Assembly (NCBI RefSeq): GCF_900105675.1
Contig: NZ_LT629786.1
Coordinates: forward strand, 806,001-870,000
Direction: 5' to 3'
Origin: Pseudomonas synxantha
GTDB taxonomy: Bacteria > Pseudomonadota > Gammaproteobacteria > Pseudomonadales > Pseudomonadaceae
DNA length: 64,000 nt
Shown here: piece by piece, positions 3,843 through 44,070 of the stretch
How positions within the stretch are numbered: position 1 is the first letter of the stretch
How the letters are laid out: each line of letters opens with the position of its first letter
Program-made: the position numbers and the translations under genes
The notes under the pieces: generated by a model
What the model was told of the DNA's origin: nothing
What the model saw: the letters and a program-made list of their open reading frames with translations, nothing else
Databases searched by the model: none

Positions 3843-4088
3843 AGCGCTGATAAATTAGGCGCGCTTGGGCTGGCAGGTAGGTACTTAGGAGGGCAGGCAA
3901 CACAACAGGGGCAAAGGTTCTGGGCCCAGGGTGAAGATCCTGATCAATTTGCAGGTTGGTTCGGTCAGAGTATTGAGACTTCGCGACACCCTTTGCTTGT
4001 TCAAAGGCTGTGTCGTCGCAAGGAATACCTGGAAACCATCGAGGTGGTCGATCCCGTGTTTTGCAAGGGACTGGTCGACCAGAATTGA
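3843..4088 (+). pseudogene. Decayed gene end, + strand (about 80 codons)
   Basis: Frame 3 is open from just after a stop at 3840 to TGA 4086-4088 and reads like genuine protein, for example FWAQGEDPDQFAGWFGQSIE followed by YLETIEVVDPVFCKGLVDQN. It has no ATG or GTG start and no ribosome site, and the upstream reading is closed by the stop at 3840. This looks like the C-terminal remnant of a truncated or frameshifted gene. I cannot name the parent family. It faces a second remnant on the other strand. Confidence 0.45.
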
Positions 4089-4165
4089 CTTTCAGCTTGG
4101 TACTAACGCCGCGGATAGTAACGGGTTGAACCAGGGAAGGCAAGCGCGTCAGCAAAAAACTTCAA

Positions 4166-4324
4166 TCAGCCGCCAAGCAGCCAGCGATAGATCAATACCG
4201 TCGCCGATGCGGCGAGGGCGCAACCGAGTCCATAGGCGGCGAGGGTCAAGCGCAAGGATCGGCCAGCCTCGAACACCTGAGGCAGTGTGGCGAGCCGCAA
4301 GAGATTTGAAAAGTCCTGGTTGCG
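4166..4324 (-). pseudogene. Decayed gene end, - strand, with membrane segment
   Basis: Reading the - strand from an in-frame stop at 4325-4327 to TGA at 4166-4168 gives about 52 codons ending in a membrane-like helix (LRLTLAAYGLGCALAASATV, then LIYRWLLGG). There is no start codon or ribosome site, so it seems to be the C-terminal remnant of a lost membrane protein. The 3' end converges on the + strand remnant that stops at 4088, as if two neighbouring genes each lost their 5' parts. Confidence 0.4.
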
Positions 4325-39739: not shown

Positions 39740-41212
<1,473 letters not shown>

Positions 41213-41240
41213 CGCCTGTTTTTCAACACATTGATTTAGG

Positions 41241-41399
41241 GTGCCCGACCTCACCAATACTGTTCAGTTTATGACGGTGCCTGTTGCCGTCATACTGCGT
41301 TGCCGCTCCTCCCCATAGCGAGCTATGAGTCGTCGCGGCGCCTTGTCTGACAGCAACAGTCACTCGTCAAAACGGAACTGTATTGGCGAGGTCGGACAC
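41241..41399. repeat. 159-bp near-palindromic element with inverted ends (MITE-like)
   Basis: The left end GTGCCCGACCTCACCAATAC (41241-41260) and right end GTATTGGCGAGGTCGGACAC (41380-41399) are inverted repeats matching at 18 of 20 bases. The symmetry continues imperfectly inward (CTGTTGCCGTCA against TGACAGCAACAG) to a perfect centre, CATAGC-GA-GCTATG (41314-41327). The whole element could fold into one long hairpin. It fills most of the fleQ-fleS gap, contains no gene, and has no obvious target duplication. This is the form of a miniature inverted-repeat transposable element; it may also weaken read-through into fleS. Confidence 0.7.
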
Positions 41400-41411
41400 C
41401 GGCGATTTTTC

Positions 41412-41428
41412 CGGCACGGGTATTGCTA
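41412..41428 (+). promoter_or_regulatory. Sigma-54 promoter of fleSR
   Basis: CGGCACGGGTATTGCTA has GG and GC separated by ten bases, with GGCACG and TTGC nearly consensus. It lies 55-70 bp upstream of fleS and just right of the palindromic element. FleQ activation of fleSR through RpoN is established in P. aeruginosa. Confidence 0.8.
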
Positions 41429-41480
41429 CAACCCTCGCAACGTTCCGTTTAACTGACGGTCAGCCAAGCGAGAGAGCATC

Positions 41481-42692
41481 ATGCCCCACGCCGCACAACT
41501 AGCTACGGCCCCTGCCATCCAGGGGCTGGTTTCGCCTGTAGAACCGCCGACCCGCCAGGGCCTGGAGCAAGCGTTCTCACAGTTCAGCCAGATGTCGAGC
41601 CAACTGACCGACTCCTACAGTCTGCTGGAAGCCCGGGTGTCCGAGCTTAAAGGCGAACTGGCGGTGGTCAGCGCCCAGCGCATGCAAGAGCTGGCCGAGA
41701 AAGAGCGCCTGGCCAACCGTCTGCAAAACCTGCTGGACCTGCTGCCCGGTGGCGTGATCGTCATTGACGACCAGGGCCGCGTGCGCGAAGCCAACCCGGC
41801 CGCCTGCGACCTGCTCGGCCTGCCGCTTGAAGGCGAGCTGTGGCGTGAAGTCATCACCCGCTGCTTTGCGCCGCGTGAAGACGACGGCCATGAAGTCTCC
41901 CTCAAGGACGGGCGTCGCCTCTCTATCGCGACCCGCTCCTTGGACGCCGAGCCGGGCCAATTGGTGCTGCTCAACGACCTGACAGAAACCCGTCACCTGC
42001 AAGACCAGTTGGCCCGCCACGAACGCTTGTCGTCGCTGGGGCGAATGGTCGCGTCCTTGGCCCATCAGATCCGCACGCCGTTGTCGGCGGCGTTGATCTA
42101 CGCCAGTCATTTGACTGATGAGCAATTGCCGGCCGCCACCCACCAACGCTTTGCCGGGCGCCTCAAGGAGCGCCTGCATGAATTGGAGCATCAGGTGCGC
42201 GACATGCTGGTGTTTGCCCGCGGCGAATTGCCGCTGACCGACCGCGTCACGCCTGCCGGCCTGATGCAGTCGCTGCAAGCGGCGGCGGCCACCCACGTCC
42301 AGGACGCCAACCTGCGTTGGCAGTGTGACAGCCACCAGGGCGAGTTGCTGTGCAACCGCGACACCCTGGTCGGCGCGCTGCTCAACCTGATCGAAAATGC
42401 CACCCAGGCCAGCGGCCCGGGCGCACGCCTGAAAGTGCACCTCTATACCCGTGAACAAACCCTGCGCCTGTGTATCAGTGACAGCGGCAGCGGCATCGAG
42501 CCGCAGGTGTTGCAACGCCTGGGCGAACCGTTTTTTACCACCAAGACCAACGGTACTGGCCTGGGCCTGACCGTGGTCAAGGCGGTGGCCCGGGCCCATC
42601 AGGGACAATTGCAGCTGCGTTCCCGCCTGGGGCGTGGCACCTGTGCATTGATGACCTTGCCGCTGTTTTCCAGTGCGGCAAGCGCGGAGTAA
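41481..42692 (+). CDS. fleS: Flagellar sensor kinase FleS
   Basis: The 403-residue cytosolic kinase has an N-terminal coiled coil, a PAS domain (about 85-170), phosphoacceptor H195 in SLAHQIRTPL, and an ATPase domain with LNLIENATQAS and the G-boxes DSGSGIEP and TGLGLTVVKA. It has no membrane helices. With FleR it controls the class III flagellar genes (fliE to flgK). It is followed by fleR seven bases downstream. Confidence 0.96.
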   Translation: MPHAAQLATAPAIQGLVSPVEPPTRQGLEQAFSQFSQMSSQLTDSYSLLEARVSELKGELAVVSAQRMQELAEKERLANRLQNLLDLLPGGVIVIDDQGRVREANPAACDLLGLPLEGELWREVITRCFAPREDDGHEVSLKDGRRLSIATRSLDAEPGQLVLLNDLTETRHLQDQLARHERLSSLGRMVASLAHQIRTPLSAALIYASHLTDEQLPAATHQRFAGRLKERLHELEHQVRDMLVFARGELPLTDRVTPAGLMQSLQAAAATHVQDANLRWQCDSHQGELLCNRDTLVGALLNLIENATQASGPGARLKVHLYTREQTLRLCISDSGSGIEPQVLQRLGEPFFTTKTNGTGLGLTVVKAVARAHQGQLQLRSRLGRGTCALMTLPLFSSAASAE

Positions 42693-42699
42693 AAGGATT

Positions 42700-44070
42700 A
42701 TGGCTATCAAGGTTTTATTGGTGGAAGACGATCGCGCCCTGCGTGAAGCATTGGCTGACACGCTGCTGTTGGCGGGCCATGACTACCGTGCGGTCGGCTC
42801 TGCCGAGGAAGCCTTGGAGGCGGTCGAGCAGGAAGCCTTCAGCCTGGTGGTCAGCGACGTCAACATGCCCGGCATGGACGGTCACCAGTTGCTCGGCCTG
42901 CTGCGCGCACGCCAGCCGCAGCTGCCGGTGCTGCTGATGACCGCCCACGGTGCCGTCGAGCGGGCGGTGGACGCCATGCGCCAGGGCGCGGCGGATTACC
43001 TGGTCAAGCCGTTCGAACCCAAGGCATTGATCGAGCTTGTGGCCCGACACGCCCTGGGTGTGATTTCAGCGGGTGAGGGCGATGGGCCGATTGCCTTTGA
43101 ACCGGCCAGCGCGCAATTGCTGGAATTGGCGGCGCGGGTCGCGCGCAGTGATTCCACCGTGCTGATTTCCGGCGAGTCCGGCACCGGTAAAGAAGTGCTG
43201 GCGCGTTACATTCACCAGCAATCCAGCCGTGCCAAGCAACCCTTCATTGCGATCAACTGCGCGGCGATCCCTGACAACATGCTTGAGGCCACCTTGTTCG
43301 GCCATGAAAAGGGCTCGTTCACCGGCGCCATCGCGGCCCAGGCCGGCAAGTTCGAACAGGCCGACGGTGGCACCATCCTGCTCGACGAGATCTCGGAAAT
43401 GCCCCTGGGCCTGCAAGCCAAGTTGCTGCGCGTGTTGCAGGAGCGCGAAGTGGAGCGCGTGGGCGCACGCAAGCCGATTCAGCTGGATATCCGCGTGGTC
43501 GCCACCACTAACCGCGACCTGGCTGGCGAGGTAGCGGCGGGGCGCTTCCGTGAAGACCTGTTTTACCGGCTATCGGTGTTTCCGCTGGCCTGGCGCCCGT
43601 TGCGCGAACGCCCGGCGGATATCCTCCCGCTGGCCGAGCGCCTGCTGAACAACCACGTCAAAAAAATGAAGCACGCCCAGGCGCGGCTGTCGGCCGAGGC
43701 CCAGGCCTGCCTGGTCAGCTACCCATGGCCGGGTAACGTGCGCGAGCTGGACAACGCAATCCAGCGTGCGTTGATTTTGCAACAGGGCGGCCTGATCCAG
43801 CCCCAGGACTTCTGCCTGGCCATGGGCAATGGCGCGGCGCCGTTGCCGAGCCTGGCGCCGGTGGTTGCCGAGGCGGAATCGGCCGGTGCCCTGGGCGATG
43901 ACCTGCGTCGTCGCGAATTCCAGATGATCATCGACACCCTGCGCGCCGAACGCGGCCGCCGCAAAGAAGCGGCCGAGCGCCTGGGCATCAGCCCGCGCAC
44001 CTTGCGCTACAAGCTGGCGCAGATGCGCGACGCCGGAATGGACGTGGAAGCCTACCTTTTCGCCACCTGA
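42700..44070 (+). CDS. fleR: Flagellar sigma-54 response regulator FleR
   Basis: The 456-residue regulator has a canonical receiver with phosphoacceptor D53 (VVSDVNMPGMD). The AAA+ domain has Walker A GESGTGKE and loop GSFTGA (205-210), an accepted variant of GAFTGA, and a Fis-type helix-turn-helix follows (RRKEAAERLGISPRTLRYKL). When phosphorylated by FleS it drives RpoN promoters of the basal body and hook genes. AAGGAT precedes ATG 42700; the longer upstream frame overlaps fleS. Confidence 0.97.
   Translation: MAIKVLLVEDDRALREALADTLLLAGHDYRAVGSAEEALEAVEQEAFSLVVSDVNMPGMDGHQLLGLLRARQPQLPVLLMTAHGAVERAVDAMRQGAADYLVKPFEPKALIELVARHALGVISAGEGDGPIAFEPASAQLLELAARVARSDSTVLISGESGTGKEVLARYIHQQSSRAKQPFIAINCAAIPDNMLEATLFGHEKGSFTGAIAAQAGKFEQADGGTILLDEISEMPLGLQAKLLRVLQEREVERVGARKPIQLDIRVVATTNRDLAGEVAAGRFREDLFYRLSVFPLAWRPLRERPADILPLAERLLNNHVKKMKHAQARLSAEAQACLVSYPWPGNVRELDNAIQRALILQQGGLIQPQDFCLAMGNGAAPLPSLAPVVAEAESAGALGDDLRRREFQMIIDTLRAERGRRKEAAERLGISPRTLRYKLAQMRDAGMDVEAYLFAT

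Follow-up and report, generated by a model that had tools for sequence, protein, structure and literature searches.

Bacterial MITEs are usually seen as passive leftovers of one insertion sequence (IS), and several described families have a form close to that of the element reported here. RUP of Streptococcus pneumoniae is a MITE of about 100 bp whose ends resemble IS630-Spn1 and which inserts at TA (PMC2229807). The NEMIS or Correia elements of Neisseria are TA-flanked MITEs whose long-hairpin transcripts are cut by RNase III (PMC2229807, PMC10969869), and ERIC (RU-1) of enterobacteria is a TA-flanked hairpin MITE of 127 bp that affects mRNA stability depending on its orientation (PMC2229807). 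In P. fluorescens, which belongs to the same host group as the DNA studied here, R178 and R6 are intergenic repeats with inverted repeats (PMC2718517). MITEPsy1 of P. syringae is a MITE found at CTAG or YTAA and listed as possibly IS5 (PMC3189936), and QMITE1 of Coxiella burnetii is a family of long palindromic MITEs, with small-RNA loci among its members (PMC5896051).

We analyzed a 64,000-nt stretch of the Pseudomonas synxantha genome (the window), which carries a long palindrome between fleQ and fleS. Like RUP, the palindrome appears to be an IS630-type MITE; unlike RUP, which is described from one species and one IS, it holds a core that occurs with several IS ends and in many genera. For NEMIS/Correia no report of a core common to several IS types was found, and ERIC comes from taxa different from those of the core carriers; both families were compared by description. 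R178, with a length of 101 bp and internal 11-bp repeats, might be the same core, again going by its description (PMC2718517). The ends of MITEPsy1 resemble both ends of three core carriers (L320, L328, and L332), unlike the ends of the fleQ-fleS element, and this comparison covers the ends. The likeness to QMITE1 is one of description rather than sequence, and the motifs AAGGCGC and GCAACGC are both absent from the main text on that family (PMC5896051). No title or abstract describing the core was found in the literature searched by sequence motif and by concept.

Very probably, the element is an old, decayed, single-copy MITE of IS630 type with modular ends and a strand-specific core shared across Pseudomonadota. 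If a one-strand core is indeed kept while the transposon ends change, part of a MITE would itself be under selection, and we consider this pattern worth following: a single structured, strand-specific core within MITEs whose transposon ends differ. The 64-nt core would offer a defined target for learning what MITE hairpin RNAs bind and do, and the model built from it (R1) is a handle for elements missed by ordinary end-based sequence searches.

A palindrome between fleQ and fleS

The element lies between fleQ (39740-41212) and fleS (41481-42692). Its symmetry reaches one base beyond 41241-41399 on each side, and the features of the whole palindrome are as follows.

41240..41400, minus strand: whole MITE; the minus strand is the best-folding one and is antisense to fleQ and fleS
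41240..41260, plus strand: left terminal inverted repeat, IS630 type
41380..41400, minus strand: right terminal inverted repeat, IS630 type

The element is 159-161 bp long, and its inverted ends agree at 18 of 20 bases, as the first-pass annotation had proposed. The same annotation had called the element a near-perfect palindrome with a perfect centre at 41314-41327. The palindromic character is far beyond chance, as the plus strand folds at -44.6 kcal/mol as single-stranded DNA (ssDNA; z -8.3) and at -82.3 kcal/mol as RNA (z -9.7), and none of 200 shuffles was as good in either case. "Near-perfect" was nevertheless too strong, since the ungapped self-match covers 94 of 159 positions and pairing needs small gaps and internal loops. 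Likewise, the centre reads CATAGC-GA-GCTATG, so that the CATAGC and GCTATG arms are present but the central GA bases are not self-complementary. No open reading frame of 100 aa or more in the list for the window crosses the palindrome. The RNA of the complementary (minus) strand folds at -102.1 kcal/mol versus -82.3 kcal/mol for the plus strand. This stronger fold and the strand-specific core described below were absent from the first-pass annotation, and the core is the unusual part of the palindrome.

Insertion into a fleQ terminator

Comparison with relatives places the element in the remains of a terminator, marked by the following features.

41225..41239, plus strand: left half of what was the fleQ terminator hairpin, including TA at 41237-41238, from alignment to the L156 empty site
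41406..41410, plus strand: T-tract left from the former terminator
41413..41426, plus strand: sigma-54-like GG-N10-GC element of fleS

The element ends 12 bp before the sigma-54-like element, in agreement with its earlier placement just before the fleS sigma-54 promoter. All 29 fleQ-fleS gaps read in relatives lack the core, which provides the clean empty site that had been suggested as a check. The closest empty gap, in L156, reads AACCGCTGA-TTTA-TCAGCGGTT followed by T8, which is the form of an intrinsic terminator. The element is inserted in the loop of a terminator of this type, with a net gain of 158 bp (268 versus 110), and part of the 3ʹ stem of the terminator is altered or lost in the filled site compared to L156. 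In 22 of the 29 empty gaps a hairpin of -5 kcal/mol or better precedes at least five T, indicating that read-through had already been restricted when the element arrived. The sigma-54-like element has stayed intact, and one fixed pattern for it was matched at 24 of 30 fleQ-fleS loci.

The first-pass annotation had suggested that the hairpin blocks read-through from fleQ or displaces FleQ upstream of fleS. Blocked read-through is a weak reading, given the hairpins before T-tracts in the empty gaps and the intact sigma-54-like element. Displacement of FleQ also appears unlikely from the arrangement of the sequence, because the element sits in the fleQ terminator loop and the sigma-54-like promoter of fleS is intact. 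More generally, the hairpin could be a local regulator of fleQ-fleS, acting as a terminator, insulator, or cruciform. The replaced terminator hairpin and the T-tract after the element would fit such a role, as would one terminator-like match at 41391-41403, where 0.3 were expected in shuffles. With the site empty in all 29 relatives, most of which have their own hairpin before a T-tract, and with the sigma-54-like element untouched, we consider a local role improbable. The sole local effect here would be that the fleQ terminator hairpin was replaced while the fleS promoter stayed intact. At fleQ-fleS the finding is thus ordinary, a relic in a terminator, and no sigma-70-like promoter was found near the element.

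In the fleQ-fleS tree, the three filled species do not form a clade, and the empty L156 nests beside the filled L006; loss, recombination, or repeated insertion is therefore needed to explain the distribution.

Copies and empty sites in other genomes

The element is single copy in its own genome, with one place found by BLAST and one core place when up to three mismatches were allowed. The end pattern occurs there at the element's own two ends and at one further place with three mismatches. Single-copy status, together with conservation at this place in all relatives and no empty site, had been named as the outcome that would speak against a mobile element; the former is true, but the latter is false. 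Related sequences were detected in 143 of 398 same-genus genomes, own included, and the copy numbers from this survey are lower bounds, since at most two candidates per genome were scored in most cases. Among 29 other fetched loci, two (L005 and L006) carry the element at fleQ-fleS, while 27 show neither gene.

With up to two mismatches, the core pattern occurred at 1 to 16 places in 36 of 149 same-genus genomes. REP/REPIN sequences are GTAG/CGTC-tagged palindromes of 20-40 bp linked to RAYT; the copy number here is low, 0-16 per genome in the 149 genomes. A scan of named genomes gave at least 120 stretches; among the 80 matches listed, the carriers were Pseudomonas and Stutzerimonas, plus two Woeseiaceae MAG contigs. 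No whole-element match was found in plasmids or phages at E 1e-5, and no viral contig had the exact core pattern.

When joined flanks were searched against the fetched loci, 19 of 145 queries produced spanning alignments with few gaps. These alignments reveal six further empty places (L015/L035, L018/L052, L051/L066, L091/L122, L095, and L150), a count that leaves out the three fleQ-fleS queries and those matching L140, itself with a rearranged copy. In L140 this copy lies at about 4028-4191, and flank sequence is repeated on the other side of the core.

Most solo end matches in carriers proved to be relics with internal deletions rather than insertion sequences. Short end-to-end relics of about 37-77 bp that lack the core were observed in L190/L219 (genome G135), L200, L209, L210, L018/L204, L229, and L232; these probably either arose from the palindrome by internal deletion or represent forms without a core.

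Ends and the candidate transposase

In the IS630 elements of P. veronii, Cupriavidus, C. callunae, and P. avellanae, both ends lie inside CTAG. The consensus end of copy subfamily A matches the P. veronii IS630 end at 24 of 28 bases, and the Woeseiaceae-type end matches the Corynebacterium end equally well (24 of 28). For subfamily B, the end matches a resident IS630 of genome G060 at 22 of 28 bases, with one IS end located. Short end queries against plasmids gave weak matches (E 0.3-5), repeatedly at IS630-family transposases: these were found in 1 of 7 opened records, in 3 of 11 (two annotated IS630 and one "endonuclease DDE"), and in the one opened record of 19. Since these plasmid matches are weak, the case for IS630 rests on the both-end matches. 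In a Woeseiaceae MAG, an 11-base end has 25 exact copies versus none of the reversed pattern, a count that includes core copies and very short relics. TA adjoins either end in 56 of 105 copies and both ends in 18 of 105, where the crude end finder had failed on 41 of 146; the fleQ-fleS copy retains TA at its left side only.

The dispersed copies, the empty sites, and the IS630 elements with matching ends support the earlier suggestion of a MITE mobilized by a transposase elsewhere, and the IS630-family insertion sequences with such ends were found in other genomes. Judging from these likenesses, the element is very probably a MITE of IS630 type, whose ancestor may have been carried in trans by an IS630 transposase into a TA/CTAG-like site, the loop of the fleQ intrinsic terminator. 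The outer arms would then be terminal repeats belonging to one or another of several IS630 types. The P. synxantha genome has no close IS630 partner: the P. veronii transposase query gave five matches there, the best with E 1.7e-4 at 30% identity.

IS481 targets CTAG and has ends of the form TGT..ACA, and the CTAG at the ends led us to consider an IS481-type transposase as the mobilizer of the family. An IS481 match above the cut-off was found in only one of seven carrier genomes, at a locus without these ends, and the IS630 ends fit; this candidate was rejected as extremely improbable.

Two side observations concern these searches. The P. synxantha genome contains a 380-aa open frame in four copies (contig C1, 74845, 1906751, 2889744, and 6315875), which weakly resembles the P. 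veronii IS630 transposase (30%, E 3.3e-4). In the Woeseiaceae MAG, positions 1501-1764 of L238 hold a 264-bp element with the same ends and a different interior, which contains GGCAAGGC and ACAAGGCGC stretches and reaches just 15.2 bits with the core model.

A strand-specific hairpin core

The central part of the palindrome comprises the following features.

41289..41352, minus strand: conserved hairpin core, 64 nt; model R1 gives 89.9 bits, E 2.1e-25 in the window, a self-match score, since this copy is one of the 41 core rows of R1
41314..41327, either strand: apex hairpin CATAGC-NN-GCTATG, with 11 dinucleotides as NN among 125 copies
41330..41334, minus strand: 5ʹ side of two tandem G.A motifs, GACGA (core columns 19-23), pairing by inspection
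41307..41311, minus strand: 3ʹ side of the two tandem G.A motifs (core columns 42-46), pairing by inspection
41338..41345, minus strand: CAAGGCGC, 5ʹ side of the internal loop that is shared most widely
41295..41303, minus strand: GCAACGCAG, 3ʹ side of the CAAGGCGC internal loop

The core varies less than the arms: among 125 distinct copies, mean column identity was 0.93-0.97 within 20 bases of the apex versus 0.56-0.63 at the outer edges. The subfamilies differ in ends and middle arms, and the core is constant; the middle arms appear to keep pairing with each other despite their differences. When 44 whole subfamily-A copies were aligned, two-sided change was found in 34 of 62 pairs, compared to at most 12 in slid controls and with no such count in 500 shuffles. 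For the 41 diverse cores, 9 of 20 pairs showed two-sided change, a count reached by 6 of 500 shuffles, and the covariation score of 0.351 was reached by none of 500.

In the same 41-core alignment, columns 19-23 (GACGA) and 43-45 (AGG) do not vary, and conservation is 90% or more in columns 42 and 46. We read GACGA and the 3ʹ columns as pairing in two tandem G.A/A.G steps on either side of a C-G pair; on the opposite strand these steps would be C.T mismatches. The conserved mismatches comprise the tandem G.A in the Pseudomonas-type set and the CAAGGCGC/GCAACGC internal loop in the wider set.

To compare the strands, 114 copies were folded (12 of 126, whose ends could not be placed, were left out, and the end finder trimmed many). 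The minus strand, in the orientation of the window, folded better in all 114, by a mean of 16.9 kcal/mol. G.U and A.C cells were counted over pooled pairs from both strands' folds that were at least half Watson-Crick, which avoids bias towards the predicted fold, and 15 copies fitting neither subfamily were left out. There were 196 G.U versus 38 A.C cells in subfamily A (77 copies, with a few B misfiled) and 80 versus 40 in subfamily B (40 copies). Over the pairs common to both folds, the counts were 63 versus 17 in A and 30 versus 20 in B, the latter a small bias. Structure is conserved on one strand in a family that is dispersed and has modular ends. The compensatory changes, the G.U rather than A.C intermediates, and the conserved mismatches argue that the fold itself has been kept, and the tip would be a hairpin core common to Pseudomonadota, kept foldable on one strand.

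Conversion between the two arms of a palindrome could mimic compensatory change, and one may ask whether this is an ordinary IS630 MITE with a functionless core, its pairing kept by template switching or arm conversion and its conservation that of young copies. Although palindromes are prone to such events and internally deleted relics are common, conversion would not prefer G.U over A.C or keep the same core mismatches. The core is, moreover, common to elements with differing ends and middle arms and to many genera, and we regard this alternative as rather unlikely.

One-strand hairpins are also recognized by Y1/HUH-type transposases in the REP/RAYT and IS200/IS605 systems, and both the strand preference and the conserved mismatches fit such recognition. 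It is unlikely, all the same, that the folded strand here is an ssDNA hairpin bound by a transposase of that type or by another DNA protein, as the ends match DDE elements of IS630 type. In the reading we favor, selection acts on RNA, in all likelihood on a long hairpin transcript with a tip that would be recognized or processed, much as RNase III and RNase E effects are reported for NEMIS and ERIC; the core may thereby help its carriers to persist or move.

Among 123 copies with both neighbors, the genes, taken from our own gene caller, formed 49 pairs on the favored strand, 39 on the other strand, 30 divergent pairs, and 5 convergent pairs, which is no strong orientation bias of the adjoining genes. 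As there is neither such a bias nor a sigma-70-like promoter, nothing indicates transcription of the favored strand. Rfam gave no match at E up to 1 in positions 40000-43000 of the window and, in six carrier loci, six matches that were all below the gathering score. The core model had no match at E ≤ 0.01 in fourteen insertion-sequence and relic loci, the best score being 16.4 bits (L223).

Distribution of the core across Pseudomonadota

Model R1 matched 38 of 398 Pseudomonadota genomes, own included, and 28 of 212 genera, often with several copies; the survey used strict filters and 13 candidates per genome, and some matches are near the threshold. A strict core pattern had hit only the P. 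synxantha genome among 369 genomes of the class, which was misleading, because the covariance model later found divergent cores. Twenty-eight loci that are not among the rows of the model (L315-L342) were recovered again at E ≤ 1.9e-6, two of them, L329 and L341, appearing doubtful. In 26 of these 28 phylum loci, as counted from the printed energies, the strand with the core had the more stable fold. The universal part of this wider set is CAAGGCG...CAACG. In an alignment fitted to the model, with 41 distinct cores from across the phylum, 18 of 20 pairs showed two-sided change (slid controls ≤ 11), and the covariation score was 0.617 versus ≤ 0.120.

The core occurs with at least four IS630-type ends. 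Of the 28 phylum loci, five have IS630-type ends on both sides (L315, L316, L318, L319, and L321), three have MITEPsy1-like ends on both sides (L320, L328, and L332), and 12 score above the shuffle level with none of six known ends. Two IS5-like ends, used as queries against plasmids, led to no annotated transposase, and so the IS5-like label rests solely on likeness to the published MITEPsy1 ends. This mixture of ends raises a wider reading, to which we give somewhat less than even weight: the core could be an independent strand-specific hairpin module (apex ATAGC-NN-GCTAT, tandem G.A, and CAAGGCGC/GCAACGC loop) at the tips of MITEs from unrelated DDE families, namely several IS630 groups and an IS5-like group. 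Such a module would spread by end exchange or by entry at palindrome tips, and would act as RNA or ssDNA to favor its carriers.

Further, the core carriers L330 and L335 have outer arms with ATACCAA on both sides, an end type that matches none of the six tried. In L142 (1042/1305) and L315 (1501/1764) the core is matched twice, both times in one orientation and at a spacing of 263 bases. In family f226 (for example, genomes G861, G903, and G1031), small drafts of 1.3-2.1 Mb from outside the class have up to nine core matches each.
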